Positions 24,691 to 46,206 of a stretch of 64,000 nucleotides of DNA are shown piece after piece; the first letter of the stretch is position 1; each line of letters starts with the position of its first letter. The notes under the pieces are model-generated. The model was not told where the DNA came from and did no database searches. It saw only the letters and a program-made list of their open reading frames with translations. The translations under genes were made by a program, and so were the position numbers. The stretch is from Spirosoma radiotolerans (GTDB taxonomy: Bacteria > Bacteroidota > Bacteroidia > Cytophagales > Spirosomataceae): assembly GCF_000974425.1 (NCBI RefSeq), contig NZ_CP010429.1:2976001-3040000 (forward strand). Direction: 5' to 3'.

Positions 24691-26841
24691 CTAAAAGTGT
24701 GGCACCCCATATAGATTGTAAATGTTTCTGGTCCAGTCGCGTTCTACTTCTTCTACCTTATCCACCACCGGAGTTACTACATTCTCGCCGACAAAATTAC
24801 CAACCTCATGCCCGATTGTACCGCCAATTACACCAAACAATAATCCACCGACGAAGCCACCTACTACACAAACGGCGTCCAGGGGGCCGGTAGGGGCACA
24901 GAATACGGCACCAGCAGCGGCTCCCCCTAAAGCTGACCCCAATATGCCACCCGTCCAGCTTCCGGCTTCTTCGCTAATAACAGTAGGCAGTTGGCCCGTT
25001 CCAATGGCCCCTCTGATTCGTTCTTCGGTATGGTAGATCCCATAAACGAGCATGACCCGGCCACCGCCCCGAATCAGGAACATACTGGCTGATGCTCCCG
25101 GTGTTACCTGGATTCGCAGCCGACTAAGTCCTTCCGCTAGCGGTCCTTCGCTCATGGCATCAGTCATTAGTCGTCCACGGCCTGCATAATGCGGATCAAC
25201 CATCCCATTTGGCCCCCGACCAGTCATCACATCTACTCCGCTGGTCGTGGTGGGCCGGGTGCCAATAGCGGCTTCAATCTCGGCCGTTGGTACGGTTATG
25301 CAGTTGTTGGTACATAAAGGAGCCTGACCTCTAGAGACAAGTTCGCTACGTAAACCGGCTTCCGTCGGTCGGACGGGGCCCAGGATGGGGTCTGGCGTAG
25401 AGCGCGGAGGACTGTATGTATACTCTCCGCCATACTGAGTAGCCTGTAGTTGGGCGGCAAATGCATCGGCCTGGGAACAGGATCGATTAGCAAACACATA
25501 ATACTGATCGCCGGGCATCAGCGGAAACCAGGCATCATTTGCAAAGCTGCCCGGCACACCTTCATGTAATCTCACCGTAAACCGTCGTCCTATAATCGGA
25601 AGCATCTCACCCAGGTAATACCCCAGATTTCCCCGATACCCTCGTATCGTGGGCGAGAAGGCACCTTGGGGATTTGCGAAAATAGAGGTGTGGCCCTGGG
25701 TCCAAAGAACGCCCGTTGTATCTCTCGGAATAAATGACCAGGGTGTTGGCGAATAATAACTGGCCCCTGCTCCGGCAGGCCCGACGACTGAAGGCAGTGA
25801 CCGGTTGAGTAAATTTGACAGAGGAACCATGACTCCCTCCTGAATCGTATCCACCGGATTGCCTGTCAGGTCGTAAAATTCCTGGGGCGTCAATTGCCTG
25901 GCGTTAAACTGAATATTCCCGAAACCGGCGGCTGATCTTGACGTGTTGGTACAGATAACCGGAACCCGTCTCTGGTTTTGAAAGAAAGTATTCGGGGTAG
26001 GTTGGCCGGGCGCTACGGAATAGCCAAAATCAAATTGAGTACCCTGTGGCACGATTCCCAGGTCAAATTCGACCCGGTTCAGCCCCAAGCTAACAGCTGC
26101 ATCGTAGGTGCCATCAGTTACCTGACAATGATCGAGTGCGTAATCCGTGCTGGTACCGTCGTGGCTAAACCGGATCTGACTGTCGGCGCAGTTGACTTCT
26201 ACCTGATCCACGGTTCGCTGAATAAGCCGGTTAAGGCTTCCGTTTTGCTGCACCGTATGGGTGAGTTCGTGGGCCAATAACGCTTTGCCCGTCGATGTGT
26301 CAGGCGAGAATTTCCCGGCGTTAAAAAAGATGTCGCTGCCCACAGTAAACGCCTGGGCATTCAGGCGCGTGGATAGGCCCGCAGCTTCGGCATCCGAATG
26401 AATCCGCACATTGGAGAAGTTTGCTCCGAAGCGGCTTTCCATAAACGTTTTTGTGGGCGTCGGTAAAGGGCTGCCCCCGCCTTGCCGGGTCTGAATCTGA
26501 CGGCTAACGGATTCGCTGACCGTAGTACCGCCTGCATCGGTTTTTCGCTGGATGAACGACGCCGTCGGTTTGCGCTGGAGTTGTTCCTCTTCCTGACAAT
26601 GGGCGCACTTACGCTGGATGAACGAGGGTTCGGCCATGCGCATGACGCGGTCGGCCATCGCGTCGGCTTCGGCTTCCAGGGGGTCATCGACGGCCCCGAC
26701 GGTGAGTTTGCGCTGGATGGGTAGGCGTTGGAAGCCCGTCAAATAGGGTTTCTGGCTGACGGAGTCAAGCGACACGATCTCTCGCTCTGCTGCCGCTGGA
26801 GCCGGTTGAGGTTGGGGCGATATAAGACTGTGTTCCGGCAT
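24691..26841 (-). CDS. eCIS cargo candidate 1: DUF4157 protein with glycine-zipper C-terminus
   Basis: 716 residues from ATG 26841; an upstream TTG at 26874 is also in frame. Layout: a proline-rich leader, repeated QRK motifs with a CAHC pair (C79, C82), then the DUF4157 domain with MESRFGANFSNVRIHSD, NAQAFTVGSDIFFNAG and the metal-binding-like HELTHTVQQ (H191-H195). A unique region of about 400 residues follows, then a hydrophobic glycine-zipper tail (GGILGSALGGAAAGAVF..., GGFVGGLLFGVIGGTIG). DUF4157 is known as a marker of eCIS-loaded proteins. The tail suggests membrane insertion or pore formation; this is inference. Last gene of the operon. Confidence 0.82.
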   Translation of the reverse strand: MPEHSLISPQPQPAPAAAEREIVSLDSVSQKPYLTGFQRLPIQRKLTVGAVDDPLEAEADAMADRVMRMAEPSFIQRKCAHCQEEEQLQRKPTASFIQRKTDAGGTTVSESVSRQIQTRQGGGSPLPTPTKTFMESRFGANFSNVRIHSDAEAAGLSTRLNAQAFTVGSDIFFNAGKFSPDTSTGKALLAHELTHTVQQNGSLNRLIQRTVDQVEVNCADSQIRFSHDGTSTDYALDHCQVTDGTYDAAVSLGLNRVEFDLGIVPQGTQFDFGYSVAPGQPTPNTFFQNQRRVPVICTNTSRSAAGFGNIQFNARQLTPQEFYDLTGNPVDTIQEGVMVPLSNLLNRSLPSVVGPAGAGASYYSPTPWSFIPRDTTGVLWTQGHTSIFANPQGAFSPTIRGYRGNLGYYLGEMLPIIGRRFTVRLHEGVPGSFANDAWFPLMPGDQYYVFANRSCSQADAFAAQLQATQYGGEYTYSPPRSTPDPILGPVRPTEAGLRSELVSRGQAPLCTNNCITVPTAEIEAAIGTRPTTTSGVDVMTGRGPNGMVDPHYAGRGRLMTDAMSEGPLAEGLSRLRIQVTPGASASMFLIRGGGRVMLVYGIYHTEERIRGAIGTGQLPTVISEEAGSWTGGILGSALGGAAAGAVFCAPTGPLDAVCVVGGFVGGLLFGVIGGTIGHEVGNFVGENVVTPVVDKVEEVERDWTRNIYNLYGVPHF
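26566..26717. repeat. 152-bp direct repeat copy A in cargo leader region
   Basis: Nearly identical to 28626-28777 with two differences only. It encodes the LTVGAVDDPLEAEAD...CAHCQEEEQLQRK leader of cargo proteins 1 and 2. Confidence 0.92.
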
Positions 26842-26895
26842 TTTACTTTTAAGCTGCGTAATACGGATTATCAACCGTTTTTGTGATCGAGTCCG

Positions 26896-27222
26896 TTAGT
26901 GCCAGGCATCGCGCAACGGGGAAACGTCAGACTGCCGGATTAGTGGGTTGTTGTTGAGCCACTCAATTACGTTATTCCGTTGCGTTTCGGAAACGCTGCC
27001 TCGGCGGGCATCTAGCGTAACAAATCCATCCCATTGATTATGGCCACCACCCCCGCCAAATACAAGCTTATTGGCTTCGATCGCGTCGCGGATAAAGGCA
27101 TCCAGTAAGCTATTGCGCTCATTAGTGGATAAGTCGGGATTGAACTGAAAGGATAGCGCAAAACCAAACTCCGTAAATTCACCACGATGAAATTTTTTTC
27201 TAAACCGCTTACCAGATCGCAT
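26896..27222 (-). CDS. YggL/DUF469-family 50S ribosome-binding protein
   Basis: A 108-residue protein aligning by eye along its full length with E. coli YggL. Shared positions include RFRKKFHRGEFTEFGF at the N-terminus, LLDAFIRDAIEANKLVFGGGG in the middle, the QWDGFVT strand, and a C-terminal VIEWLNNN...SPLRDAW. YggL binds the 50S subunit; its exact role is not settled. The location is unexpected: it is embedded between two DUF4157 cargo genes with gaps of about 40-55 bases on either side. It has no DUF4157 leader itself, so it is more likely an accessory or self-protection protein than cargo. A chance insertion is also possible. Confidence 0.82.
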   Translation of the reverse strand: MRSGKRFRKKFHRGEFTEFGFALSFQFNPDLSTNERNSLLDAFIRDAIEANKLVFGGGGGHNQWDGFVTLDARRGSVSETQRNNVIEWLNNNPLIRQSDVSPLRDAWH

Positions 27223-27260: not shown

Positions 27261-28907
27261 CTAGGAAAGGCAATTGTCATTCAACGCTTTAATAATACTC
27301 CGACATGTGCCATTTTCTTTTATACTCCTGGGGATGGTCGTGATTTGCTGGTCATTTTTATAGACGATGGTATGGCTGCCGCCTTCTTTCGTACTACAGC
27401 CCCCTTTATTAGCGGCATTAATCAGTGTATTTCGCTTACAGTCAGACGGATAGCTGAGTTTGCCCTTCAGCGCCGTAACGTCAGCCGATTCTGATTCTGA
27501 GGGCGTGACGGGCCGTGCTGCGGGCGCAGGCCGGCTTTGCCAGTTCACCAAGCCAATCAAACCGGAAGCGGTTGAGTAATTGTGATTGCGGGAAATCCAG
27601 GGGGCTAGCCCAAACATCGCCGTTTCTATCTCGGCATCGGCCTCTACCCGGGCACCCATAAATACATCCACCTCGTCAACGCTGTTCGGTACGTCATACA
27701 GTGGCTGAACCGAGTCACTATAAGGTACGAGCGTGCCTTCATTTACTTTTTTTAGCGGTATCGTCACCTTCGCAGTACCATCGCCGACGGGGTGCTCGAC
27801 TTCGATCAGGCCAAGGTCGCCAACGGTTGCTGCGGAGATACCGCCATTTTTTATTTCAAACAAATTTTTTCCGGGTGGAGTAGGGTTGGCCGCTGTTCGT
27901 TCAACGGCCCGTCCCCATACGACAGAAGCGGCTCTGGCATAATAAAGGTCTTCGGCTTTGGCATTACCGGCATATTGACCAAATAACTTCAGTTGAAGAA
28001 AATCAGCGTCTTTGCCGTCATTCTTAAAGACAAAATGCTGGGTACGCCATTGCGAGGATTGGGCTTTACCGCCAACTTGTTGGTGAACAAAACCAGTTTC
28101 CTGCCAGGTACTAGCTTTGCTAAGGAGACCGCCCACAGAAGGACTGTTGTAACTCATGGGTAAAACGGAGCCATTTTCCTCGGTCATGTTGATTTCTGTC
28201 ATGGCATTGGCCTCTACCTTATCCAGACTCCATTTTCTTTGGATAACGAGTGTCGGTTTCGTATTGATTATCCCCGCGTTTTCGCCACCCCGATTGGACT
28301 GCCCCTGCTGCACCGTATGAGTCAATTCATGAGCTAGTAAGTGCCTGCCCTCCGCCGAGTCTGGGGCGTATTTTCCCTGATTAAAATAGATGTCGCTGCC
28401 CACGGTGAATGCCTGAGCATTTAACTCCCGCGAGAGCTGTACGGCATACTCGCCCGTATGAATGTTAACGCCCGAAAAATCCACGCCGAAGCGAGTTTCC
28501 ATGAAGCTGCGAGTGTTTTCGGCCAAGGGGGTGCCTCCCCCTTTCGTAGCCTGAATCTGGTTGGTTACCGCCAGGCTGGTCGTTCCTGCGCCCGCATCGG
28601 TTTTTCGCTGGATAAAGGAAACCAGCGGTTTGCGCTGGAGTTGTTCCTCTTCCTGACAATGGGCGCACTTACGCTGGATGAACGAGGGTTCGGCCATGCG
28701 CATGACACGGTCGGCCATCGAGTCGGCTTCGGCTTCCAGGGGGTCATCGACGGCCCCGACGGTGAGTTTGCGCTGGAGGGGCAGACGCTGGACGCTGATT
28801 GGCTGCACAGGCTGATTGAATGTCTCTGTGGGCACAGCTACGGCTGGCTTACTCGCTGCAGCTGGCGTAAGTTGAGACGGGGTCGATAGGGGAGCGTGTT
28901 CAGTCAT
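27261..28907 (-). CDS. eCIS cargo candidate 2: DUF4157 protein with HicA-like C-terminal domain
   Basis: 548 residues. The N-terminal part mirrors cargo 1: leader with CAHC (C81, C84), METRFGVDFSGVNIHTGEYA, AQAFTVGSDIYFNQGKYAPDS and HELTHTVQQ at 193-201. The middle (about 225-470) is unfamiliar. The last 59 residues contain LINAANKGGCSTKEGGSHTI, then VYKNDQQITTIPR and NGTCRSIIKALND. This follows the order of HicA mRNA interferases: helix, G-S-H on the central strand, T-I/V-P, then GT-x-R-x-I-x-K. H512 would be the catalytic histidine. This makes an RNA-degrading injected toxin likely, though the assignment rests on motif order and not on a search. Confidence 0.8.
   Translation of the reverse strand: MTEHAPLSTPSQLTPAAASKPAVAVPTETFNQPVQPISVQRLPLQRKLTVGAVDDPLEAEADSMADRVMRMAEPSFIQRKCAHCQEEEQLQRKPLVSFIQRKTDAGAGTTSLAVTNQIQATKGGGTPLAENTRSFMETRFGVDFSGVNIHTGEYAVQLSRELNAQAFTVGSDIYFNQGKYAPDSAEGRHLLAHELTHTVQQGQSNRGGENAGIINTKPTLVIQRKWSLDKVEANAMTEINMTEENGSVLPMSYNSPSVGGLLSKASTWQETGFVHQQVGGKAQSSQWRTQHFVFKNDGKDADFLQLKLFGQYAGNAKAEDLYYARAASVVWGRAVERTAANPTPPGKNLFEIKNGGISAATVGDLGLIEVEHPVGDGTAKVTIPLKKVNEGTLVPYSDSVQPLYDVPNSVDEVDVFMGARVEADAEIETAMFGLAPWISRNHNYSTASGLIGLVNWQSRPAPAARPVTPSESESADVTALKGKLSYPSDCKRNTLINAANKGGCSTKEGGSHTIVYKNDQQITTIPRSIKENGTCRSIIKALNDNCLS
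28626..28777. repeat. 152-bp direct repeat copy B in cargo leader region
   Basis: Copy of 26566-26717 differing at two positions. The repeat suggests recent duplication or gene conversion of the cargo leader. Confidence 0.92.
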
Positions 28908-28958: not shown

Positions 28959-30026
28959 CTAATCGCTGAGCCATTCCCAAAGGGCTTGTGCCCCACCCAT
29001 AACGGCTCCACCAACTAGGCCACCCAAGCCGGCTCCATACGCAGCACCGGCAACTCCGCCCGCTGCCCCACCGCCAACGGTCCCTACACCCGGCGCAACC
29101 AGTGTACCACCGACTCCGCCACCAAGTGCGCCCAGGATCGCTCCGCCTACCATACCAATGCCTGCGCCAACGGCCGTGGCGGTCGCAATACGTCTGGTTG
29201 CGGCTGAACTTCTCGCTGGAGCATTTTCGGGCACGGGCACGGTTGTCGGTTGATTTCTACACCGGACCGTATGGCCTATGCAATTCGCTAGTGCGTTTTG
29301 CAACTCCGCTATCTCCACCGCATGCCTTCCATTCGGATAGTCAGGCGTCGGATTTGCGATATCCCATTGCTGGTGCCTTAAAATAGTGTGTCGTAAGTAA
29401 TTGATTTTTAGGGAAAGCTGCGAACAGGTATCAGTACTTGTACATCTTAGATCGGTTCCTTCGGGAGGATGGTAAGGTCCTCCCGGCTCGTGTTGCCTTT
29501 GGACTATTCTATGGATGGGTGATTGGCTGCTCTGCTGCACCGTGTGCGTCAGCTCATGGGCCAGTAAGTGCCTACCGTCCATTGAATCGGGGGCATACTT
29601 GCCGGAATTAAAATAGATGTCGCTGCCCACGGTAAATGCCTGGGCATTTAACTCACGGGACAGTTGTACGGCATACTCGCCCGTATGAATGTTAACGCCC
29701 GAAAAATCCGTGCCGAAGCGAGTCTCCATGAAGGTTCGGGTTGTTGCGGGCAACGGATTACCCCCGCCCTGAGTTGCCTGAATCTGGCTGGTGGTAGCCT
29801 GAGTGGCCTGACTGCCGCCCGCTTCGGTTTTTCGCTGGATGAACGAGGCCATCGGTTTGCGCTGAAACTGTTCCTTTTCCTGACAGTGGGCGCATTTGCG
29901 CTGCACGAAAGGCTGCTCCGGCATCCGCATAATTTGGCCGGCTACGGCGTTAGCCTGTTGCTCGTAGGCATCGTTGGCTGCGCCAACAGTGAGCGTCGGT
30001 TCAGCGGTTTCGGTGGTGTGTGTCAT
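28959..30026 (-). CDS. eCIS cargo candidate 3: DUF4157 protein with glycine-zipper tail
   Basis: 355 residues. A short leader with CAHC (C45, C48) and FIQRK, METRFGTDFSGVNIHTGEYA, AQAFTVGSDIYFNSGKYAPDS and HELTHTVQQ (157-165) define the DUF4157 part. Residues of about 190-260 contain a small cysteine-bearing domain (CTSTDTCSQLSLKINYLRHT, then GRHAVEIAELQNALANC) that I cannot name. The last 75 residues are Gly/Ala/Val with GxxxG repeats ending in WEWLSD, suited to membrane insertion. The ATG overlaps the TGA of the AAA+ gene (ATGA at 30023-30026), so it is translated in coupling with the ATPase. Confidence 0.8.
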   Translation of the reverse strand: MTHTTETAEPTLTVGAANDAYEQQANAVAGQIMRMPEQPFVQRKCAHCQEKEQFQRKPMASFIQRKTEAGGSQATQATTSQIQATQGGGNPLPATTRTFMETRFGTDFSGVNIHTGEYAVQLSRELNAQAFTVGSDIYFNSGKYAPDSMDGRHLLAHELTHTVQQSSQSPIHRIVQRQHEPGGPYHPPEGTDLRCTSTDTCSQLSLKINYLRHTILRHQQWDIANPTPDYPNGRHAVEIAELQNALANCIGHTVRCRNQPTTVPVPENAPARSSAATRRIATATAVGAGIGMVGGAILGALGGGVGGTLVAPGVGTVGGGAAGGVAGAAYGAGLGGLVGGAVMGGAQALWEWLSD

Positions 30027-31579
30027 AAACTTTTCCCTTCCTTTCGATACTCTTTTCGAATGCCCTGTACGATGTCTTCCAGCAAAATAACCGTTCGTCC
30101 GTCTGATGGCTCGGCTTCCGTGGCGACTCCGGCTTCGGTGGCTGGGTCAGTTGCGTTTGGGGGGCCGGCTTCGGTGGCTCGTTTGGTACGGTTCAGCGCC
30201 ATGAGCGACGCATACTGAACGACGTTCACAATCGAACCTCCGGCCAGATCGTACTGCCGGGCGCACTGGTCAAGGTCAACGCTTTTCTCCAGGACGGCTT
30301 TGGGGCTGATCGCATTTTGCCATAATTTCAGTCGTTCTTTGGGTTGTGGCTTTGGGAAATAAATGACCGACTGCAAGCGCCGACTAAAGGCTTCATCGAC
30401 GTTCTGGCGCATGTTCGACGCCAGGATGACCAGGCCCGCGTAATCCTCCAGCCGTTGAAGCAGGTAGGCAATCTCCTGGTTGGCATATTTATCGTGCGAA
30501 TCGGAGATGTTCGTGCGTTTGCCAAAGAGCGCGTCGGCCTCGTCGAAAAACAAGATCCAGTTTTTATTCTCGGCTTTGCGAAACACTTTTTCCAGGTTTT
30601 TCTCGGTTTCACCAATATACTTCGAGACCACCATCGACAGGTCAATTCGGTACACTTGAAGGCCAAATGTCTTGCCCAGGAGTGCGGCCGTCAGGGTTTT
30701 GCCCGTACCAGGCGGCCCATAGAACAGGGCTTTATAGCCAGGCTTGGTGCGCTTGCCCATATCCCAGGTTTCGTAGAGCGTGCGCCCGTGTTCAAGCCAG
30801 ATTCTGATTTCTTCGATTTGGCGGGCCGTGTTCTCGTCCATGACCAGATCACTCCAGGTCATGCGGGTATACAGCCGTTTTGCCGGAAACTCCAGGCTAA
30901 AGGGTGGGGTACGCAGTTGACCGGTCGTAAAAAAGTCGACGTACTCTTCGCTTACCCCAAGCTGACTGCTGTAATAAGGTTCGTTTCCGTTGGACGAATC
31001 GATGTATAAAACGTTGTGTTCCAGGAGAATATGAGTAGGCTCGAACAGCCGATAGGCATCAAACCGTTTGCCCAGATCATTGCCCGCCAGAATAAACAGA
31101 GCCGTCTCAACCGTTGGCAGAAAGCCGCCGTGTTTCACTCCCTTTACCCCGCCAAATTCGGCATAACCGCGCCCTAACGCTTTGTTGGGCATGAAAAAGA
31201 TGTCTAACAAGTGCGGCTGTATGTGTGGAATAAGAGCCAGCATTAACAGCGTACGTTCCTGCGCGGAGAGTTTGTAGAACCCGACAAACTCCGCATACAC
31301 CGAGCGTTCCGTCGATACGTTGGGTGGGCTATCGAGTGGATCGGGTTCCGAATCGGGGGCGGGTGCTTCCAGGAGTTTAAGCCGGGGAGTGGCTCCCCGC
31401 AGGGACCACCAGTGTTTTTCTTGCTGCTCCCTTTCGGGGGGGGGCGCTTCCTGGGGGAAATAATTGGCTAGACGAAAATTAACGACACGCGCAAACCAAC
31501 TGATTTCGCGGGACAGCGTATCGGCGTTGAGCAGTAATTGCTGCTCCGAAGGTTGAGTGGAGGTTGGTTCGGCTACCAT
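30023..31579 (-). CDS. eCIS AAA+ ATPase (Afp15-like)
   Basis: 518 residues from the ATG at 31579, which overlaps the tape-measure stop; a GTG at 31633 is an alternative. Walker A is GPPGTGKT (about 288-295), Walker B ILFFDEAD (342-349), with sensor-type LASNMRQNVDEAFSRR downstream. An N-terminal domain of about 250 residues precedes the ATPase, as in the Afp15/Pvc15 group required for particle assembly or cargo loading. Odd feature: near the C-terminus a low-complexity stretch repeats TEAGPP/TEAG/TEAEP (30095-30185). It lies between the tape measure and the cargo genes. Confidence 0.92.
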   Translation of the reverse strand: MVAEPTSTQPSEQQLLLNADTLSREISWFARVVNFRLANYFPQEAPPPEREQQEKHWWSLRGATPRLKLLEAPAPDSEPDPLDSPPNVSTERSVYAEFVGFYKLSAQERTLLMLALIPHIQPHLLDIFFMPNKALGRGYAEFGGVKGVKHGGFLPTVETALFILAGNDLGKRFDAYRLFEPTHILLEHNVLYIDSSNGNEPYYSSQLGVSEEYVDFFTTGQLRTPPFSLEFPAKRLYTRMTWSDLVMDENTARQIEEIRIWLEHGRTLYETWDMGKRTKPGYKALFYGPPGTGKTLTAALLGKTFGLQVYRIDLSMVVSKYIGETEKNLEKVFRKAENKNWILFFDEADALFGKRTNISDSHDKYANQEIAYLLQRLEDYAGLVILASNMRQNVDEAFSRRLQSVIYFPKPQPKERLKLWQNAISPKAVLEKSVDLDQCARQYDLAGGSIVNVVQYASLMALNRTKRATEAGPPNATDPATEAGVATEAEPSDGRTVILLEDIVQGIRKEYRKEGKSL

Positions 31580-32928
31580 TGTGTGTATAAAAGGCTGGGC
31601 ATCCAGGGGAGTTTGATCAGGGAGAAACTCCACGGAATGCTGTCAAGCAATACGTCGATTGTTTGTCGTTCAACCTGCAACTCCCAGGCTGAGTTGGTAA
31701 AGGTGAGCACCCCATCGCGTTGCAGAAACCCCTCGCGTAAGCCGTTCACCGACGTACTTTTTAGGGCTTGCCAATGCGAAATAACGTCGGTCAGCAGGGC
31801 GTACGCTTCGCGGTAGCCGGCTTCGGTCAGGTCGATCTTTCGGGGAACGGGTACCTTGAGCGGAATGCCGCACAGCAATTTGCCAAGGGTAAGCAGGTAT
31901 TCGGAAGCATGGGTTTCTCCCGTAGCCAGATAATGCAAACTATGCAGCGCCTTCTCCCGAGACAGGTCATCAATAAATTCGCCGTTTTCAATCCAGCCCA
32001 CTTCTCTGAAAAACGGGGATAAAAACGGGGACAGAAGGATTATTCCTGCGTTTTTAACGAAATACTTAGGTCTGTCGCCAACGGCCGAATCCGTCGCCGA
32101 CTGAAGAAAGGGAGCCTCCGTCGGTTCGAAAGCTACTTGAGAAACGGCGTTGTCTTTCGAAACAGCCTTGTAGTCAGTTAATTGGGTTTTCGATAATTGA
32201 TGGACCGTTGGCCGTTGCAAGGGGCGGTTAAGTACCTGTTCAATGATAGCCCCGGTCTGACTAACCAACGTTGGTTGATGCGTAACGTAGGGCATTAGCC
32301 GTAGATAAACCTCCGCCGGAAGTGGCTCTTGCTTCAGTAAGCTGGCTTCAATTGGTTCGGCATGAACCCAGGTTTGCAGTTCAGGAAAACATCGGCCTAT
32401 TAAATCCGCTGCAACTTCGGTCGTGAATTGGTAGATCAACCGTTGGACAACCTGCGGAGCGCGGATAATACGAAGTAGTTCGGAACGAAGCGTTTCGGGC
32501 TGTTGGTGAATCAGTTCGTTAAGAATAGTGTCCAATTTCGTTGTTTCGGCAATGGCCCACCAAGGTAACTGACCCGTCAGAAGGAAATGAATCAGCGTAT
32601 CGAGATCCGTTTTCTGCCGAGAAACCGCACCGGTTGTCGCCGTAGATAAGGCTAGCTGCTTCACGAAAGCGGCTTCGAAATGGTGCTCAAACGCAGTCGC
32701 AAACAGGTTTTCATCGGGAAAGTCGGTAACGAAAACGGGTAGTTGAACCACCAGTTTATCCAGCCGCAACCACTGATCTTCGGAGATGTAGCGCGAGCAG
32801 ATCCGGTCTATTGCCGACACCAGCAGAGGTTGCAGGGTCCGCCCAACTTCAGCCCCAACCCGCATGGCCTGCTCGTCGGAGGGGCAGGTCATCTCGAACT
32901 GTAGGCTGTTGACAAGGTGCGTTTGCAT
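31573..32928 (-). CDS. eCIS tape-measure protein (Afp14-like)
   Basis: A 451-residue protein beginning MQTHLVNSLQFEMTCPSDEQA, typical of the contractile-injection-system tape-measure family that sets tube length. The C-terminal part contains GIILLSPFLSPFFREVGWIENGEF and YLATGETHASEYLLTLGKLLCGIPL, both family-like. Its stop codon overlaps the start of the AAA+ gene. The gap upstream to the large baseplate gene is about 106 bases, the biggest inside the structural part of the operon. Confidence 0.85.
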   Translation of the reverse strand: MQTHLVNSLQFEMTCPSDEQAMRVGAEVGRTLQPLLVSAIDRICSRYISEDQWLRLDKLVVQLPVFVTDFPDENLFATAFEHHFEAAFVKQLALSTATTGAVSRQKTDLDTLIHFLLTGQLPWWAIAETTKLDTILNELIHQQPETLRSELLRIIRAPQVVQRLIYQFTTEVAADLIGRCFPELQTWVHAEPIEASLLKQEPLPAEVYLRLMPYVTHQPTLVSQTGAIIEQVLNRPLQRPTVHQLSKTQLTDYKAVSKDNAVSQVAFEPTEAPFLQSATDSAVGDRPKYFVKNAGIILLSPFLSPFFREVGWIENGEFIDDLSREKALHSLHYLATGETHASEYLLTLGKLLCGIPLKVPVPRKIDLTEAGYREAYALLTDVISHWQALKSTSVNGLREGFLQRDGVLTFTNSAWELQVERQTIDVLLDSIPWSFSLIKLPWMPSLLYTQW

Positions 32929-33034
32929 AATTCCGAAATTATGGGGCGCAGGTCAAAATACTGGGTATGATTCGATAAGATCATCCCGTTATCATACCCG
33001 GTACATTGATCTGCTTTCTTTGCATAAACGTCCA

Positions 33035-36000
33035 CTAACCCTCGTGTCCGCAGTCGTCCTGGCAATGTCCACAGGTTTGGAGCGTATCCAGCGCTGTGAC
33101 CAATGGATTCACGTTTTCGTAGGCCGGTACTTCATTCGTCGCCATCTCGGTCAGCCAGGCAAGGTAGGTTTGTTCAAACGTCCGCATCTGTTCGATGCCT
33201 ACCCATTTCACCCGCATCTGCACATGGGCCGGTGCCTGGGTCTGTATGGTTTTTTCCACCAGGTTCCGATACGTCCGATCTTTAAACCGGCTGGGCCAGC
33301 AGGGCAGTATCACCGTTGTGCGAAACGAGTACGGGTCTTCATTATGATCGCAGGGATTGGACGCGCAATACCAGTCTAACTGAAACGAGAAAAAGCGAAT
33401 CAGGGCCCCGATGGCCTCCTCTACGTCGAAGGAAACTTTTGGGCCGCCGGGCATTCTGCGATTAAAACTATACCCGCTTTGCCCCAGCACGTCGTTGGGA
33501 TTGTCCGTATGCAGGATGAAGCCATATTTCAGGGCAGACCCCTGTTCACCGTTGTTTACAATCTGATAATTTGCCCGCTCAGAACCATATTCCCGCAGAG
33601 CCGCCAGCCGGTCGCTGAGTTGCTCATATCGCTTGAATTTCAACGGCATATACGTTGTCGCTGGGCCGTAGATAACGCGCTGATACAATAGGCTGATCGA
33701 TTCGGTTGTTTTTTTCGCCCGCGTGAGCACTTCGAGTTTCCAGGGCATTTTGTCGTAACACTGGTCAGCAGGCAGGCGACTTACGCTGATACGGTGGGTG
33801 GGAGCTTCCCCTTCGTCAAGGCCAATGCCCAAGTCGCATTCATCCAGGCAGATGGCAGGCAAGGCTACCGGTATATCGTTCCTCCCCGATTCATCAAGAA
33901 CTTCGTCTAAGCGGGGGCGCAGGAGGATGTGCTCCACCAAGTGCAGCCCCTCCCGTGCATTGACGGCGCTGACCCAGGCCATTATTTTTTTGATAGTGGC
34001 TTCACGGATCTCCCGTTTAGGGTAATACCCACTGGTGGCAATAACCGTGTCGCCGTTGGCGGCCATGAGTTCAAACCAGAACTGCCCAACGTCACCCTGG
34101 TTTTTGCGCGCCCGGTAGTTTACATCGTCGTGAAGCCGGTAATACGACCGTTTTCCGGCCTGCTCAATAAGCAGGTGCATAAGGTCTTCCGTACAGCAAC
34201 CTACGGCTACCTCTACGCTTGTTAACCAAACCTCAGATGGTGAATCAGGGTTTTGCACCTGAATCACCTGGACGGGACTGCCTTTTGGGTTCGTTTTTGG
34301 CTTTTCGCCCGATTTACTTTTTTCCAAAACAGCCTGTGTCAGGATATTCGTCGGGACTAAACTTCGGGTGGCCAGGTCAGGCATACCCAGCAACCGCCTG
34401 ATTCGCCGTTCGGTGCCGGATATATTTTCGATCATGCGTGGTTTGTCGCCATCCTTGCTGTAGACGTCCCACCTCTCATCGATTGAATAATCGAACCCAC
34501 GCGCCCGGTCTCCACTGATTTTTACGTAATCCTGCAGTAGCTTACTTTTGTCGTTTAGCAGCCGATGGTCTACGTTTTGGGGCGAAACTAAGCGGGTCTG
34601 GGCTTCATACTCGTCTATGTCTTCCGAAAAACGCGCCATCAGGTGATTCAAAAACCGGTTTCTTCGTTCTGAAAACTGGTTTGGTTTCTCGACTAAATCT
34701 TCCAGAATCTCCTGGAAGATCGCCTGTACGGACTGCCCGTTTTGGCTATCCCGCGCCCCAGGCTGAGTACCTTTCTGGGGCGGTTCTGGGTGTTCGATCA
34801 GTAGCCGGTCAAGGTCTGTTATTTCCGATAAAACGCGGGTAAAATAGGTTCGTTCAATTCGGTCATCGAATGAAAACAAGTCCCGCAGGTGATCCAGCTG
34901 AACGAGGTAATCGGCCAGTAGTTGCTCAAAAACCAGTAGATAGCCGCGCAACTGGAGTGTCTGTGCCTGGCGCGTGGGACTTTCGATGGCCCCGGCCTCA
35001 TCATACTCTTTCACGGTATAACAGGCCGGTAGCGAATACTGAACAGGGTAGTAGTCGGCCAGTTCCATGTTCTCACCTACCGGAACCGGCAAATCGACGG
35101 CCTGTTTCTGGAGTTTATAGGCTTTTTCCTGCGCTTTAAGATCGGCAAAGAGTTTGTTGACCCGCGCCGGCCGGCGGTCGGTGGAGCTTCCGGTCTGATA
35201 CGTGATAAGCTCTCGCTGCTTGCAAAAAACTGCCTGGCAACCAGTCGTAATCAGCCGGGCCACTTTGCGTTCCTGCCGCAGTCGATCGACCCACTGCCCG
35301 AAATAAGGACCCGTGATGAGCTCGCCCTGCGCATTCATCAAGTAAAATCTCGATATGGCTTTCACTCCCGGCAAATCCATTACCTGATTGATAACATCTG
35401 ATACGTGCAAATTCCGGAACAGGTCAGTTTTGTCGAGCTCGTTGCTGTCAATGAATCCATGACGTAAGGCGGGCCCGTCAAAAATTTCGTCGATGGTCCA
35501 GCCCTTTTCCAGCATTTGGTCAATGGTGTGGTGCCAGACGGCGGGCGTAAAGTATTGGAAGAGCGTATAGTAAATTTGGGCCAGGACCTGGTCAGGGTCG
35601 GCCTGCTCATCCAGATCAACAGCGAGTTGTACGGTGAAATCGTCGTATTCCACCTCATTGACGGCGATAAAATCTTCGCACAGATTGCGGTTACGATTGA
35701 GTCGATCCACTACTTTACGGCGTACTTCCTCCTGGGTCTGCGTGCGTTGTATGTCTTCTTCATACTCGATCAGAACGGTGTATAACCCGTTTAACTCCAG
35801 GATCTTCGTGCCATATGTAGTCGTATTGTGCCGGTTAATTTTTTCCCGGTAGGCTATTTTTTTCGCCTGCAGCTCTACCTTCTCCTCTTTTTGCCTGACC
35901 AGTTCCTCCTTTTCCTGCTCCAGTATCTGACGATTAGGATGGCCCTCCGGCAAATCATTTATCTGACTGGTTAAGGCGTCGATTTCTTTTTCGAGTTGCG

Positions 36001-36574
36001 TACGATCATCCGCATACTGATTTATCTGCTTATCCAGCAGTGATAAATAGGCCTTTTTACTGGTTTCTGCTTCCTTTTGCTGATCGTCTTTATCACCACT
36101 CAGCGTCAGGTTACCATAGCAGGGTGAATCTGTCGTATCGCATCCGCAGGCGTGGGAATTGGGCCGGATAGCGTTGTAATTAAGAAAGAGCGGTACTTCG
36201 TAATCTTTGCTCGGCTCAAGCCAGGCATTACGAACGCCGTCAATGTCGATAAGCAATTTTCTGTAATCATTGATGGTCTGGGGGCGGCAATGCAGTATCT
36301 GGCGGGCCGTATAAAAAATATGGTCCCAGGTATTCGTGCTCGGATTGGCGGGCGTCAGCAAATCCTTCATGTCCCAGTCGGTGCGGTAGGCCAGATCAGT
36401 TATAGCATAGCAAACCGCTTCGAGCATGGTAATGCCCGGATCGTGGGTGTTGTAGTCGGTCCAGAGGGAGCTGCCCAGTTTTTCGATGTGTTCAACCCCC
36501 AGTTTCCGTAACGCAACGTAGTCTTCGGCGGGAAGCAGCGGGTGATCTTTGACAAGACGAATGGATTCTGACAT
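33035..36574 (-). CDS. eCIS baseplate wedge protein (Afp12-like) with coiled-coil insert
   Basis: 1179 residues. The N-terminus (YVALRKLGVEHIEKLGSSLWTDYNTHDPGITMLE and AYRTDWDM) is characteristic of the Afp12-type giant baseplate protein. A striking coiled coil runs from about residue 163 to 248, rich in Glu, Lys and Gln (LEKEIDALTSQINDL, LEQEKEELVRQKEEK), just after a cysteine cluster (CGCDTTDSPCYG). The C-terminus ends in another cysteine cluster (TCGHCQDDCGHEG). It is 6 bases from the gp47-like gene upstream. The insert may lengthen the baseplate or bind a partner such as the envelope; that is inference. Confidence 0.87.
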   Translation of the reverse strand: MSESIRLVKDHPLLPAEDYVALRKLGVEHIEKLGSSLWTDYNTHDPGITMLEAVCYAITDLAYRTDWDMKDLLTPANPSTNTWDHIFYTARQILHCRPQTINDYRKLLIDIDGVRNAWLEPSKDYEVPLFLNYNAIRPNSHACGCDTTDSPCYGNLTLSGDKDDQQKEAETSKKAYLSLLDKQINQYADDRTQLEKEIDALTSQINDLPEGHPNRQILEQEKEELVRQKEEKVELQAKKIAYREKINRHNTTTYGTKILELNGLYTVLIEYEEDIQRTQTQEEVRRKVVDRLNRNRNLCEDFIAVNEVEYDDFTVQLAVDLDEQADPDQVLAQIYYTLFQYFTPAVWHHTIDQMLEKGWTIDEIFDGPALRHGFIDSNELDKTDLFRNLHVSDVINQVMDLPGVKAISRFYLMNAQGELITGPYFGQWVDRLRQERKVARLITTGCQAVFCKQRELITYQTGSSTDRRPARVNKLFADLKAQEKAYKLQKQAVDLPVPVGENMELADYYPVQYSLPACYTVKEYDEAGAIESPTRQAQTLQLRGYLLVFEQLLADYLVQLDHLRDLFSFDDRIERTYFTRVLSEITDLDRLLIEHPEPPQKGTQPGARDSQNGQSVQAIFQEILEDLVEKPNQFSERRNRFLNHLMARFSEDIDEYEAQTRLVSPQNVDHRLLNDKSKLLQDYVKISGDRARGFDYSIDERWDVYSKDGDKPRMIENISGTERRIRRLLGMPDLATRSLVPTNILTQAVLEKSKSGEKPKTNPKGSPVQVIQVQNPDSPSEVWLTSVEVAVGCCTEDLMHLLIEQAGKRSYYRLHDDVNYRARKNQGDVGQFWFELMAANGDTVIATSGYYPKREIREATIKKIMAWVSAVNAREGLHLVEHILLRPRLDEVLDESGRNDIPVALPAICLDECDLGIGLDEGEAPTHRISVSRLPADQCYDKMPWKLEVLTRAKKTTESISLLYQRVIYGPATTYMPLKFKRYEQLSDRLAALREYGSERANYQIVNNGEQGSALKYGFILHTDNPNDVLGQSGYSFNRRMPGGPKVSFDVEEAIGALIRFFSFQLDWYCASNPCDHNEDPYSFRTTVILPCWPSRFKDRTYRNLVEKTIQTQAPAHVQMRVKWVGIEQMRTFEQTYLAWLTEMATNEVPAYENVNPLVTALDTLQTCGHCQDDCGHEG

Positions 36575-36580
36575 GGCCGT

Positions 36581-39500
36581 TTAGGGGTTCTTCCGCTTTT
36601 CGCAGGGCGTTTGCTCGGGTTCTTCTTCGTATAACAAAATCAAATGCTGGGGCACGGAGACCACTAGCGACCGTGAGGTAGAGGGCGCAATGGTTACCTG
36701 CCAGGGGTTATCGCCTTCCAGGAGTTGCTCCAGATCGTCGCAGTTTGTTATCCCCTTCAACACATCAGCCGATAAGGTTTCAGGGGCGCCCTGGGGTACC
36801 TTCGTCGTGTCGGGCGGACAACACTGTTCCTGGCAGACCCCCATTTTGAAATCGGTGATGAAGTCCACGTACAGGCGTTCTTCAATAAAGTTAATGACCG
36901 CCGAAGCGTAGATTTTCTGGTCGAACGATACGTCGGCGGTTTCCTCAAAGGCCCAGGGCGTGAGGTAGCGTACCAGTTCATCGTTGAGCTTTTTCAGGTG
37001 AAACCCTTTATCGACGCCCTCGTAAAATTTAACCCTGAAGGTGACGATGACCTCCTCGTAGCGAGGGTTACGGGCATGAATGGTAACGAAGGGCGATGTC
37101 CGTTTTTTTAGGAATTCCTCCATCCTGCGCAAAAGCCGGTAGCTTGTTTTCGGCTGAAGCGGATTGACGGCATTCCGGTTTTTAAAGTCAGAAATGGGTA
37201 TAATCAGCACATGCCCCGGTGCAACCTGTGGCCCGCAGCAAATGGGCGCTGGGTTGCCTGCTGGTGGGGTCGTGAGTGGAGTCGGTTCCCGACACAAACA
37301 GGTTGGGTCTGTATGGGTAATACATTTGACTTTGTAAGTATGTGGGAAAGCCTCCAGGATAAGGTGTTCGTAATCCCAGGTGTTGATGGCGCGGGCTTTG
37401 TGCCGCAGCCGCTCACTGACCCGGGCATAGAAAAAGCCACCTGCTTCCTGCGGTTTGCCATCGAAGGAGGCAAAAGGCTGTTCGATTCGTTTTATTTCGG
37501 CCTGGTTCGTCAGCAGTTTAGAAATGCTGGTTGCCGGGAGAGGCTGTAGGTAATGAGCCGGGGCATTCTGCTGATCGGTGAAAACGGCTTCGGTGGCCTG
37601 TGCCCGTACGTCGATCAGTTTAGGAACGCGGTCGGCGTGTTCGGTGACGCTGGCACAGAGCCATGATAAACCATCCGTCAACAGGGTATTCGTACTGACG
37701 AGGTCTTTGGGAATATCAAATTTGATGATGCCCGTCGTTTGCAGCCCATACGTGCCGTCGGACAGGATTCGTTCGGACGGTAGGGGCCGCATTTCGTCGT
37801 CGACGACATACGACCAGTGGATTTCGGGCGGATCTTCCGTATAGTCTTCGTCTTCGGCGGTCCCTTCGGCAATCTGGAAGAGTAACGAAAGCGTTTGCAG
37901 GGGCTTCAATCCGGTCAGGCCAATGTATAAAAATCCTTCTTCCTGTTGAATAGGGTCAATGTTGCCGGCAGGGGGAGGATTACTTTCTGTTGCATAGGTG
38001 TACTGATTCAGGCGATAGGCTTTCTTTACCTGATCGGCTATAAAAACGGGCAGGGCATCCGCCACGTTGATTGCTCTCTTGTTCGCATTGGCAAGAAGGG
38101 GAACTGGCTGCGGGGGCAAATCAAGTTTAGCCAGTTCCTGAAGCAGTGATTTGGTTGCATTCGGGTAAACAAACTGCGGAAAAAGCGCTACCAGCTGTTT
38201 ATTAACCGTCGCGTCGGCAATGCCGAACGGGTAGATGTGCAAAAATTGATCGATCCCTTTCTGTAAGCCGGTCAACTTAGAATCGTAGCAAACCGCGATG
38301 GATTTCATGCGTAATCGTTGCGCCACCTGCTGTTGTAGGACAAAGAAATTCGGGTCTCTTTCCTCCGAAAATCCCAGGCCATTAATCGTCCAGCGGACAA
38401 AGCCTTTCAGCGTGTCGTTATTGGCCAGGGTGACCGGTAAAACAGGTGTGCGTTTGGCCTCCTTCAGGAAAGGCTCAAGCTCTTTCCAAGTCCGATTGTA
38501 TAGGTATTTAAATACCTGTTTCTCGTTGCCTGGACCAGCTGGAATAAGTTCTGAACGACCATTTGCCCATTCCACCTGCAATACAACCGCGCTGGGTGGC
38601 TTATTGAATACTTCGTCGCTTCCTATATAAAGTGACGGAAAATTAACAGGATACGCTGTGAAAGGATCAAACGAATTGCTCGCATCGATCAGGCCCGCAT
38701 CGTTCTGGAGAACCAGCTTTTTTAACCCATCCAAATCGGATAAGGGGTTGAGCCGACCAGCTATGTCCTGATTAGTTACGGCGGTCGATCCTACTTTAGT
38801 GCGAATTATGACATCGTCTAACGACAGTTTTTGGGCAAATGCAAGTTCGGACGTGTCGATTTCCCTGACCAGGCATGTCAGTACGGGCTGCACGACGCTC
38901 TTCCGCAAACCACCATGTTTCTCGCTGTCATACGGCACAATAGCGGGTGCCGAAAGGGGCAGGTAGATATGGAGTGTATCCGCATTAAAAAAATACAGTC
39001 CGGTTTTCAACACCTCTTCATCCTGCCTGATGGGATCGGGCAGCGTAAACAAACCGTTCTTGAGTTGCTCTTCTATGTTTAGTATTTCAGCCTGATCGGT
39101 CAATTGATGGGCCACCCGAATCCATTCTTTATCACCTGTTAACCAGATTTCGAGCGTCTCCGGGTGCTTGCTAAGTTCAGTTAACCCCTTGATGGTCAAT
39201 TCCAGTTTGCGATTGCCGCCTTGCAGCAGAAGTTGTGGAGAGGCAATGCCAAAGCCGATGGCCTTCTGATCGATCCTGACTTCGGCATCAGCCCGGACGA
39301 TGTCGCAGGGATTTCTGAGCGCCCCCAAGTCGATGTCCCCTTTGCCGAAGGCGTCCCATTTTCCATACTCATCATCGAAGGCCTCGCCCTGGCCGTCTTT
39401 CGATTTTGCATTGGGCCGAGCATACAATCGGTTGATCGTCTTCGTCGCGGGATTTTTAACTAATCGTATGGTTTTTAATTCCTTAACCTGAGCCTGGTTG

Positions 39501-40522
39501 GCAACAAAGTCATCGCTTAGGTGGTAAATCAGGTCTTTCCCCAGCGCATCGCGTCCGGCCAGCAGGGGGGTGCCTTTTGGTAAAAAATAATCAGACACGT
39601 CCTGCGCCAGTTCAAATACGACATGCACATGGTCGGGGCGGGCGGGCTGTTCGTGTAACCGAAGCACATCGCGGTAATAAAACGCCAGGTGTTTCTGAGT
39701 GAGCGTGTTCAGTTGATCCTGTGCCAGCCTGAACAATTCGAGAAAGGCAATAAACAGCGCCATATGGGGCTGATGGGCCGGGTACTGCTCCAGCGCAAAC
39801 TGCATGTACTTGTCCGAACCCTCGACCAGCCGCCGTAACGCATTGTAGAACGCCTGAAACACATCGTCCACAAATAAGGCGGCATTCCGCAGTTGATCGG
39901 CCAGGTCATCGCCTTCATAAATGGACGATGTGGCGGGGATATCGTCGTCCAGTCCCCAGAGTTTCGGGTTCTCGAAATGGCTGTAATCCAGGTTTAGTCC
40001 TTTATTGGCATTGATGGCGCGGAATGACTCCTCGTAGGCCATGATCTGCCCGATCTGCGCCCGCAACACGGAGTTGATGAGGAGCGTAAGATCGTTATGA
40101 AGGGGCTTTCCCGGAATGGCCACCGAATACCAGCGGTCAAGCCGACGGGCCATGCCCAAAATCGGATCGAACAGAGCGCGGAATCTATCGCGGGTAGGTG
40201 TTGCTTCCACGTCACGGCGAATGTCGTCGTAGTCTTTTCGAATCTGGACCAGGTCGGTTACCGCCACCGAAGCGGCCACCACCGCGCAGTCGCGTCGGAA
40301 AAACTCCCGCCAGCTTTCCTGATCGTCTCCCTGCTGATCGTCGGGTATCGGCCAGAAGCGGATTTGAGCCGCATACCGTTTGGCATAAACCAGCAAATCT
40401 TCCAGGCTACGCGCATCGATGGGGGCGTAGGTGGGGTCGAGCGCTTTAAGATAACGTTGGCGCTGCCCCGAACCGTCGCGGGGAATGTCGTGCTGGCAGT
40501 GGCAATCAGTTGTCGTTTTCAT
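36581..40522 (-). CDS. eCIS baseplate J/gp47-like protein (Afp11-like)
   Basis: 1313 residues, the largest gene of the cluster. It carries features of the Afp11/gp47 baseplate family, with a C-terminal J-like part containing RARAINTWDYEHLILEAFPHTYKVKCITH and APGHVLIIPISDFKNRNAVNPLQPK. With the gp25-like and Afp12-like proteins it forms the wedges around the spike. Its ATG overlaps the gp25 stop as ATGA (40519-40522), implying coupled translation. Cysteine clusters occur near both ends (CHCQ, CQEQCCPP). Confidence 0.88.
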   Translation of the reverse strand: MKTTTDCHCQHDIPRDGSGQRQRYLKALDPTYAPIDARSLEDLLVYAKRYAAQIRFWPIPDDQQGDDQESWREFFRRDCAVVAASVAVTDLVQIRKDYDDIRRDVEATPTRDRFRALFDPILGMARRLDRWYSVAIPGKPLHNDLTLLINSVLRAQIGQIMAYEESFRAINANKGLNLDYSHFENPKLWGLDDDIPATSSIYEGDDLADQLRNAALFVDDVFQAFYNALRRLVEGSDKYMQFALEQYPAHQPHMALFIAFLELFRLAQDQLNTLTQKHLAFYYRDVLRLHEQPARPDHVHVVFELAQDVSDYFLPKGTPLLAGRDALGKDLIYHLSDDFVANQAQVKELKTIRLVKNPATKTINRLYARPNAKSKDGQGEAFDDEYGKWDAFGKGDIDLGALRNPCDIVRADAEVRIDQKAIGFGIASPQLLLQGGNRKLELTIKGLTELSKHPETLEIWLTGDKEWIRVAHQLTDQAEILNIEEQLKNGLFTLPDPIRQDEEVLKTGLYFFNADTLHIYLPLSAPAIVPYDSEKHGGLRKSVVQPVLTCLVREIDTSELAFAQKLSLDDVIIRTKVGSTAVTNQDIAGRLNPLSDLDGLKKLVLQNDAGLIDASNSFDPFTAYPVNFPSLYIGSDEVFNKPPSAVVLQVEWANGRSELIPAGPGNEKQVFKYLYNRTWKELEPFLKEAKRTPVLPVTLANNDTLKGFVRWTINGLGFSEERDPNFFVLQQQVAQRLRMKSIAVCYDSKLTGLQKGIDQFLHIYPFGIADATVNKQLVALFPQFVYPNATKSLLQELAKLDLPPQPVPLLANANKRAINVADALPVFIADQVKKAYRLNQYTYATESNPPPAGNIDPIQQEEGFLYIGLTGLKPLQTLSLLFQIAEGTAEDEDYTEDPPEIHWSYVVDDEMRPLPSERILSDGTYGLQTTGIIKFDIPKDLVSTNTLLTDGLSWLCASVTEHADRVPKLIDVRAQATEAVFTDQQNAPAHYLQPLPATSISKLLTNQAEIKRIEQPFASFDGKPQEAGGFFYARVSERLRHKARAINTWDYEHLILEAFPHTYKVKCITHTDPTCLCREPTPLTTPPAGNPAPICCGPQVAPGHVLIIPISDFKNRNAVNPLQPKTSYRLLRRMEEFLKKRTSPFVTIHARNPRYEEVIVTFRVKFYEGVDKGFHLKKLNDELVRYLTPWAFEETADVSFDQKIYASAVINFIEERLYVDFITDFKMGVCQEQCCPPDTTKVPQGAPETLSADVLKGITNCDDLEQLLEGDNPWQVTIAPSTSRSLVVSVPQHLILLYEEEPEQTPCEKRKNP

Positions 40523-40938
40523 CGCTCAAGATCAGTGGCTTCGTACACGTAAAAGGGAAATACGTAGTTATAGCGCGTGTTGGTCGTGATGACAGTATAG
40601 TTGATAGCAATATCGAGCCGCCCTTCCGTTGCGTCAAACGTCGTCGTTAGATCTTCCTGTCGCACAATGATGCGTGGCTCATGGTACACGATGGCCTCGT
40701 AGACGAGTTTCTGAACGAGCGCCTGCGCGCTGGGTGTCATCGTTTCGAATACATAGGGGCGAAGGTCGGCTCCGTAGCGGGGCAGCATAACTCGTTCGCC
40801 CGTTACCGTATGGAGCAGAATTTGCAGACTGCTGGTAATGTCGGCCTCACCAACCAGCATATCGACCCGGTAGCCGGTGCTGCGGAAGGTTGGCGGGAAG
40901 CTCCATCCCCGCCCCAGAAAATCGTTGTTGTCCGTCAT
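40519..40938 (-). CDS. eCIS baseplate gp25/GPW-like protein (Afp9-like)
   Basis: 139 residues from ATG 40938 (MTDNNDFLGRGWSFPPTF). The frame is open back to 41256, but that part is the shadow of the PAAR gene. GPW/gp25 hallmarks: FLGRGWSFPP, LVGEADITSSLQILLHTVTGERVMLPRYGADLRPYVFE and RLDIAINYTV. Gp25-like proteins initiate sheath assembly at the baseplate. Overlaps the gp47-like start by 4 bases. Confidence 0.92.
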   Translation of the reverse strand: MTDNNDFLGRGWSFPPTFRSTGYRVDMLVGEADITSSLQILLHTVTGERVMLPRYGADLRPYVFETMTPSAQALVQKLVYEAIVYHEPRIIVRQEDLTTTFDATEGRLDIAINYTVITTNTRYNYVFPFYVYEATDLER

Positions 40939-40970
40939 CGTTTTAGTACCTAAGCTTAGCCGGGAATTAC

Positions 40971-41291
40971 TTATCCAACCTGAACGGAGGCCAGTCCGCC
41001 TGTAATCAGCCCCCCATGCGCGGTGGCATCGCCCTGTCGGGCAACGGGCCGGTTGCCAATAAATACGCCCGAAGACCCCGCCTGAATAACATCGGGTGGC
41101 CCGGCACAGGTGCATTGACTCCCGACCACCGCCACCCGTAGTCCGCCCGCAAAAACGGTCAGTAACGTAGGTGGCATTATGGGCGGGATCACTGTCGGCA
41201 AAATGGGTCCGCCGGTGTGGGGCGTAGCGGCCGGGGCCGGATTGGTCAATGGACACGTATGCGCATCGGTGACCCGAGCAATGGCTTTCAT
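40971..41291 (-). CDS. PAAR-domain spike tip protein (Afp10-like)
   Basis: 106 residues. It begins MKAIARVTDAHTCPL and continues with HTGGPI, VFAGGLRVAVVGSQCTC and GVFIGNRPVARQGDATAHGG, the PAAR repeat arrangement that folds into the sharp tip on a VgrG spike, usually holding a metal via His and Cys. No C-terminal extension is present, so it does not itself carry a toxin. Lies 2 bases after the VgrG-like gene. Confidence 0.93.
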   Translation of the reverse strand: MKAIARVTDAHTCPLTNPAPAATPHTGGPILPTVIPPIMPPTLLTVFAGGLRVAVVGSQCTCAGPPDVIQAGSSGVFIGNRPVARQGDATAHGGLITGGLASVQVG

Positions 41292-41293
41292 GG

Positions 41294-42946: not shown

Positions 42947-43614
42947 TGGTCAGCAATTGGGGGGAAAAAGAGCGTCGTACCGGCGGTTAACCGGCGAAAA
43001 TTCTTCAGGCGGTTAACCCTGGCTACCTGTAAGTAATAGCGTTGATCCTGGTAAATCTGGTGAACCAGCAACGGCAGACTGTCGCCCTCCTTCACCGCCC
43101 GAACGTGGGTCAGGTCGGGGGATGATAGCATACCGACGATCTTGCTGAACACATTGTCGACGACTTCAGTAAAACTGGCGCTGATCTTGGCCCGAATGGG
43201 CAGGCCAAATTTGTCGAACATGGTGTAGGTAACGGTTGAGGAATTCAGGATGCAGCGGACGATGAAGGTTCCGTACTGCACAAGCAGGTAGGCTGGTCGG
43301 TGAATAATGCCCTTCAGTTCGGTTGTGGCCGCTCTAAACAGGGCAATTTGTACCGGAATCGGAATTTTTACCCCGTTGGTATTGACGCCCGTTCCGTCGA
43401 TGGTTAGCTCCAGGGTAAACGTTCGGGCTTTAATCCGTACGAAGGCCGGATCGCTGCCGGTTTCGCCGGTTGTGCAGTGCGGGTTATACTCAACGTCTTC
43501 TTTAATGGCTACGCTTTCCGGATTGAACATGGCCAGAAACGGCACACCCATCGGGATGCCCTGCGGGCTTACCGGAATAATTTTGAGATTGAAAGGCAGT
43601 TTTAGTGTGTCCAT
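42943..43614 (-). CDS. LysM-containing tube-baseplate connector (Afp7-like)
   Basis: 223 residues. The N-terminal domain (FLAMFNPESVAIKEDVEYNP) is the eCIS tube-initiator type. The C-terminal 50 residues form a LysM-like module (VKEGDSLPLLVHQIYQDQRYYLQVARVNRLKNFRRLTAGTTLFFPP). In Afp and PVC this protein joins the inner tube to the spike. Overlaps both neighbours by a few bases, consistent with strict co-translation. Confidence 0.9.
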   Translation of the reverse strand: MDTLKLPFNLKIIPVSPQGIPMGVPFLAMFNPESVAIKEDVEYNPHCTTGETGSDPAFVRIKARTFTLELTIDGTGVNTNGVKIPIPVQIALFRAATTELKGIIHRPAYLLVQYGTFIVRCILNSSTVTYTMFDKFGLPIRAKISASFTEVVDNVFSKIVGMLSSPDLTHVRAVKEGDSLPLLVHQIYQDQRYYLQVARVNRLKNFRRLTAGTTLFFPPIADQ

Positions 43615-43778
43615 CAGCGTTCCTGTTTTTCACGAAGGATTTCCAGCACTTTCTCCACAATCTCCGATACCGAATCCAGCCCGCCACTACCGGGTGGGCA
43701 ATCGATCTCAGTTACGCCGGTGCTGGGCGTGGCCTGAACGACGGTTCGCACAACGAGTTCGTTAATCTGTACGGGCAT
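43614..43778 (-). CDS. Small eCIS protein, DUF5908-like (Afp6 position)
   Basis: A 54-residue protein reading MPVQINELVVRTVVQATPST..., with a C-terminal amphipathic helix of EIVEKVLEILREKQER type. The MPVxINELVVR start and helical end are typical of the small DUF5908 proteins found in eCIS clusters between tube and LysM genes. The stop TGA overlaps the ATG of the next gene (43614-43616). Function is unknown; a structural linker is likely from position. Confidence 0.82.
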   Translation of the reverse strand: MPVQINELVVRTVVQATPSTGVTEIDCPPGSGGLDSVSEIVEKVLEILREKQER

Positions 43779-43796
43779 ACTGGGTTTGGTTAGAGG

Positions 43797-44264: not shown

Positions 44265-44266
44265 AA

Positions 44267-44701: not shown

Positions 44702-44719
44702 GTGTGTAACAAATATGGA

Positions 44720-46189: not shown

Positions 46190-46206
46190 TGGGTCTGCCT
46201 GGTTGT

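Follow-up and report, generated by a model that had tools for sequence, protein, structure and literature searches.

A HicA-related tip on an extracellular contractile injection system cargo protein of Spirosoma radiotolerans, with a YggL-family gene as candidate immunity partner

In a 64,000-nucleotide stretch of the Spirosoma radiotolerans genome (contig NZ_CP010429.1, positions 2,976,001 to 3,040,000; hereafter the window), an open reading frame (ORF) of 548 amino acids on the minus strand (27261..28907, ATG start) joins an N-terminal DUF4157 leader, by way of a linker, to a C-terminal tip that resembles HicA, the toxin of type II HicAB toxin–antitoxin modules. We consider that this ORF probably encodes an RNase of the HicA type that would be injected by an extracellular contractile injection system (eCIS), probably in an antibacterial role, with the YggL-family gene of 108 amino acids that lies behind it (26896..27222, minus strand) as the candidate immunity gene. 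The original prediction, made from the DNA letters and their translations, had described this reading frame, a series of HicA landmarks in its last residues, and their fusion to DUF4157. The frame is indeed as described, the landmarks occur in the predicted order with the histidine of GGSHT at residue 512, and Pfam recovers both parts of the fusion: eCIS_core (DUF4157, PF13699) at residues 127–203 (28299..28529, minus strand; expect value (E) 3.8e-32) and HicA_toxin (PF07927) at residues 495–542 (27282..27425, minus strand).

Run over the whole protein, the HicA_toxin profile scores 20.8 bits (E 4.2e-4); on the last 77 residues alone it reaches 24.2 bits (E 3.7e-5). Because even the latter score is below the curated cut-off of 27, we call the tip HicA-related and do not file it as a member of the HicA family. 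A second profile, constructed from 27 distinct stand-alone HicA stretches out of 42 scanned loci (one of them, L045, a short fragment), gave the tip 42.8 bits and the best of 5000 shuffled sequences (4557 of which reported a score) 10.9 bits; among the 531 frames of at least 50 residues in the window, the cargo ORF was its sole match at E <= 10 (E 3.5e-11). This control is partly circular, since the query was part of the model by which the HicA stretches had been collected, and the independent evidence is therefore the Pfam match. Several results weigh against a HicA assignment: in addition to the sub-threshold Pfam score, an NCBIfam scan of the cargo gave no HicA match, a phmmer search of PDB sequences found no HicA, and a PF07927 search of the organism's own genome did not report the cargo locus. 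If one adds to these that the domain is short and that an alignment-free model of the tip was uninformative, the likeness might be attributed to chance and the tip to another small fold. Such a coincidence appears very improbable against the score of 42.8 bits where no shuffle exceeded 10.9, and against the 51% identity to phage HicAs over 55 residues. Judged from the sequence, the HicA likeness of the tip exceeds chance.

The nearest relatives of the tip come from phages. A tblastn search of 50,697 phage records matched nine, all of them Moraxella phages, at no more than 50.9% identity over tip residues 20–74. In the two Moraxella loci that were opened, a small ORF is followed by one of 137 amino acids; both small ORFs are HicAs in Pfam (E 2.9e-7 and 6.6e-9), one scanned partner is HicB-like (Pfam E 5.8e-11), and the partner in locus L003 scores as UPF0150 and weakly as HicB. 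A scan of viral contigs with the HicA alignment yielded 10 loci that are 40–52% identical to the tip, nine of which have, by eye, a HicB-like ORF of 137–140 amino acids directly after HicA; the tip alone as query retrieved nothing from viral contigs or plasmids. Since these closest relatives are stand-alone HicAs beside HicB-like genes, the tip belongs with the HicA toxins of ordinary toxin–antitoxin modules. With such HicAs (for example, that of Moraxella phage Mcat24, the 50.9% match) it has in common the domain homology, the glycine and candidate catalytic histidine, and the modelled fold. It differs from the type II module, in which a small stand-alone toxin lies beside hicB, in being the end of a 548-residue fusion, preceded by 471 residues of DUF4157 leader and linker, and in having a YggL gene in place of an adjacent hicB. 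In the organism's own genome, PF15919, the only HicB family searched, found no match at E <= 1. In 296 phylum genomes the HicA profile found 32 matches in 25 genomes; 31 of them lie in frames that do not exceed 103 amino acids and only the window's lies in a long one (562 amino acids), and no second copy of the tip in a long frame was present in 222 family or 390 order genomes (the family, order and phylum samples overlap).

A homology-guided model of the tip (predicted local distance difference test, pLDDT, 83.8) has the HicA arrangement of helix-strand-strand-strand-helix, with H512 where the second strand starts, and the three top rows in a VIA-align comparison were all HicAs; being homology-guided, the model is not independent of the HicA relatives. 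The original prediction had staked its HicA claim on both a profile match and a HicA fold, and on both counts the outcome favoured it. HicAs in general are reported to require two residues, a glycine and a histidine (PMC12297915), and the tip retains both of them, as G510 and H512. By this homology H512 (codon 27372..27374, minus strand) is the candidate catalytic residue of the putative RNase. The PRH histidine of HicA is replaced by a serine in the tip, and no histidine stands at the offset of HicA His29 (PMC12297915). These losses could signify that the tip is derived from HicA and is inactive, or that it merely binds RNA or a partner, the cargo then being no RNase at all; the tip is moreover a single sequence, too little to reveal purifying selection. 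Against such a decay stands the retention of precisely the two residues that HicAs are reported to need, and we regard it as distinctly unlikely.

The remainder of the protein marks it as putative eCIS cargo: it carries DUF4157 at its N-terminus, and its gene stands at the 3' end of the eCIS operon. In these features, and in having a variable tip, it is like the eCIS-associated toxins (EATs) of PMC8213781 and PMC11297309, from which it is distinguished by the HicA-related nature of that tip. G+C content drops along the ORF, from 0.569 in the leader to 0.516 in the linker and 0.455 in the tip, the whole window having 0.519; that the tip, like YggL (below), is lower than the leader speaks for the reading proposed here.

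The YggL gene (G+C 0.491) starts 38 bp past the cargo stop; here and below, gene starts are mechanical first-start calls and intergenic spacings are approximate. Its match to PF04320 is full-length (profile positions 1–102 of 102, E 1.1e-30, 107 bits against a cut-off of 27). YggL has been described as a 50S-associated protein of the gamma- and beta-proteobacteria, likely involved in late subunit assembly (PMC8058203, in part). The present gene shares the complete profile with that assembly factor and differs from it in its situation, behind a cargo toxin gene and in a family of genomes otherwise without YggL: only one of 222 family genomes, the window's own, has the gene, and only two of 395 phylum genomes, the other copy being situated between ORFs that by eye resemble acyl-CoA dehydrogenase and thiolase. 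As the tip and YggL are both basic (isoelectric points of 9.0 and 9.5), a simple charge-based interface between them is not favoured, and an action on the side of the ribosome is left open. No relatives of YggL were confirmed in viral contigs. Plasmids have it in 23 records, and no cargo toxin was seen beside it in the four plasmid neighbourhoods examined; the closest plasmid copy (Gemmatirosa, L012, about 5001–5315) is surrounded by small ORFs in which similar versions of one peptide motif recur, by eye like an integron cassette array. In a Latescibacterota locus (L062, 6110–6959) the genes that come next to YggL are DUF4160 and DUF2442, a pairing familiar from toxin–antitoxin-like loci. In an Acidobacteria locus (L074), the ORF upstream of YggL looked HicB-like by eye; it had no Pfam match at E <= 0.1 and was dropped. 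YggL is not known as a family of immunity proteins, and we found no co-mention of "YggL" with "immunity protein" in the papers searched.

The gene organization in other members of the genus indicates what might be expected behind such a cargo. eCIS_core proteins occur in 13 of 36 genus genomes (22 matches), and nine regions, read without G189, G194, G199 and the second G208 place, contained 15 cargo ORFs besides the three of the window. In BLASTP comparisons with the 17 other cargo ORFs, the window cargo aligned in the leader only, no alignment extending beyond residue 247; a shared leader with exchangeable tips, the hallmark of polymorphic toxins, is thus present. Ten of the 15 genus ORFs were scanned with Pfam (all except L159_4013, L160_4442, L160_8604, L163_4301 and L163_12549). 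One tip is an Ntox15 domain over the cut-off (E 6.3e-15), a toxin with an antibacterial role; of two NERD tips one is just over the cut-off and one under it, Tox-REase-7 and Ntox1 are both under theirs, and the remaining scanned cargo have no recognised toxin tip. The nine downstream proteins scanned included one GAD-like/type VI secretion system Tdi1 protein (over the cut-offs), one SUKH-1 protein (24.6 bits against a cut-off of 25.4), encoded 27 bp behind its cargo, and one WD40-like protein, and the other six gave no meaningful Pfam match. The Tdi1 gene lies 35 bp downstream of the DUF4157 and Ntox15 cargo of genus-mate L166 (4250–8202), and this pair resembles that of the window in its DUF4157 leader, its C-terminal toxin and the small gene close downstream, while the toxin and immunity families are different. 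Since recognised immunity families (Tdi1, SUKH) stand behind the cargo in at least two genus-mates, this slot is an immunity slot there, and it is YggL that fills it here. Elsewhere in the genus, two similar 174-amino-acid genes without Pfam match (L163, 12028–12549, and L165, 9835–10356) come after the two long NERD-tipped cargo ORFs, and these constitute a candidate new immunity family.

We envisage that the DUF4157 leader would mark the cargo for loading into the particle, as published eCIS work suggests, that the eCIS would inject it into a target cell, most likely that of a competing bacterium, and that there the HicA-related tip would bind and cut RNA, with H512, by homology, in the catalytic role. 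YggL would protect the producer, either by binding the toxin or by way of the ribosome. Taken alone, the assignment of YggL as the immunity protein is based on its position, its rarity and the practice of the genus, and we advance it as a serious, still tentative, candidate. A more specific version, in which YggL was recruited to guard the 50S target instead of, or besides, binding the toxin, seems unlikely; a YggL that guards the large subunit would imply that the tip attacks ribosomal or ribosome-bound RNA.

The YggL gene directly downstream of the cargo, which the original prediction had overlooked, also matters for the identity of the target. The HicA-type RNase might be injected into eukaryotic cells, those of protists or of a host; YggL would then be an unrelated passenger, and eCIS toxins that act on yeast and have no immunity genes have been reported (PMC8213781, in part). 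Consistent with a passenger, YggL occurs elsewhere in unrelated contexts, and none of the best 80 YggL loci, taken from at least 481 confirmed among at least 594 stretches and 73 of them titled Pseudomonas, has a HicA-like frame nearby (HicA profile, E <= 1, 6-kb flanks where present). These facts are opposed by the position of YggL, in the place that recognised immunity genes take in two genus-mates, by its being missing from the 221 other family genomes, and by the presence in the genus of cargo whose tips, Ntox15 for one, belong to kinds known to be antibacterial. A eukaryotic target is in our opinion improbable, and we retain as the probable explanation an antibacterial RNase with YggL as its candidate immunity protein.

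The eCIS operon occupies 30023..47845 on the minus strand. Nine of its 12 ORFs belong to Pfam families (AAA ATPase, CIS tape measure, gp25, hub/spike, CIS tube, two gp19 tube proteins, sheath and Pvc16-like) and three are without match; no tail-fibre gene was identified by Pfam among the 12. The genome's three eCIS_core matches all lie within the window, the other two cargo ORFs being those upstream (28959..30026, minus strand, 355 amino acids; PF13699, E 1.9e-32) and downstream (24691..26874, minus strand, 727 amino acids; PF13699, E 1.2e-31) of the one with the HicA-related tip. The three leaders are pairwise 69–80% identical in DNA over 401–494 alignment columns. Both neighbouring cargo have glycine-rich, membrane-like C-terminal ends without Pfam match beyond DUF4157, which are possibly membrane-active tips. 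The linker of the HicA-tipped cargo (residues 227–471; 27495..28229, minus strand) gave no credible match in these searches: residues 220–471 have none in Pfam, and residues 227–471 matched nothing except the own genome among 222 family genomes. Among 203 phylum genomes there was one match besides that in the organism's own, in G648 (E 6.8e-4); it falls in an ORF that by eye resembles a PAS-type sensor kinase and was set aside as chance, leaving no credible relative; plasmids gave no match, and the best hit to PDB sequences had an E of 0.26. The idea that C490, C504, C535 and C546 are a sign of secretion was dropped because many of the stand-alone HicAs collected for the profile also have cysteines, several at the position of C504.

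Predicted eCIS toxins already include BrnT, HigB-like and YoeB annotations (PMC11297309, in part), and toxin–antitoxin-type cargo is therefore known in kind. The word HicA is absent from the main texts of PMC11297309 and PMC8213781, and the available parts of PMC9846239 and PMC7180214 report no fusion of DUF4157 or eCIS proteins to HicA. The original prediction knew of no well-described case of this fusion, and our literature search, which lay outside supplements and most subscription papers, found no co-mention of HicA and "contractile injection". The HicA homology, homology-guided fold and DUF4157 fusion have been sustained, and RNase activity, loading and injection are predictions; in general, toxin–antitoxin-type eCIS cargo is no novelty. 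What is new here is a HicA-type tip on eCIS cargo, and the pairing with YggL is the more novel part. According to PMC8213781, most of the antibacterial eCIS toxins tested have no immunity gene that can be recognised as such, and there is room, then, for families not yet recognised, of which YggL may be one.

If our interpretation is true, a type of toxin whose usual place of action is its own producer cell would have been turned into a weapon fired into other cells, and the known eCIS toxins would gain a HicA-type tip. How antibacterial eCIS producers avoid poisoning themselves is a question left open in PMC8213781 (in part), to which the pairing with YggL would bring a concrete candidate; it also suggests that YggL, until now described in association with the ribosome (PMC8058203), may have a new role.
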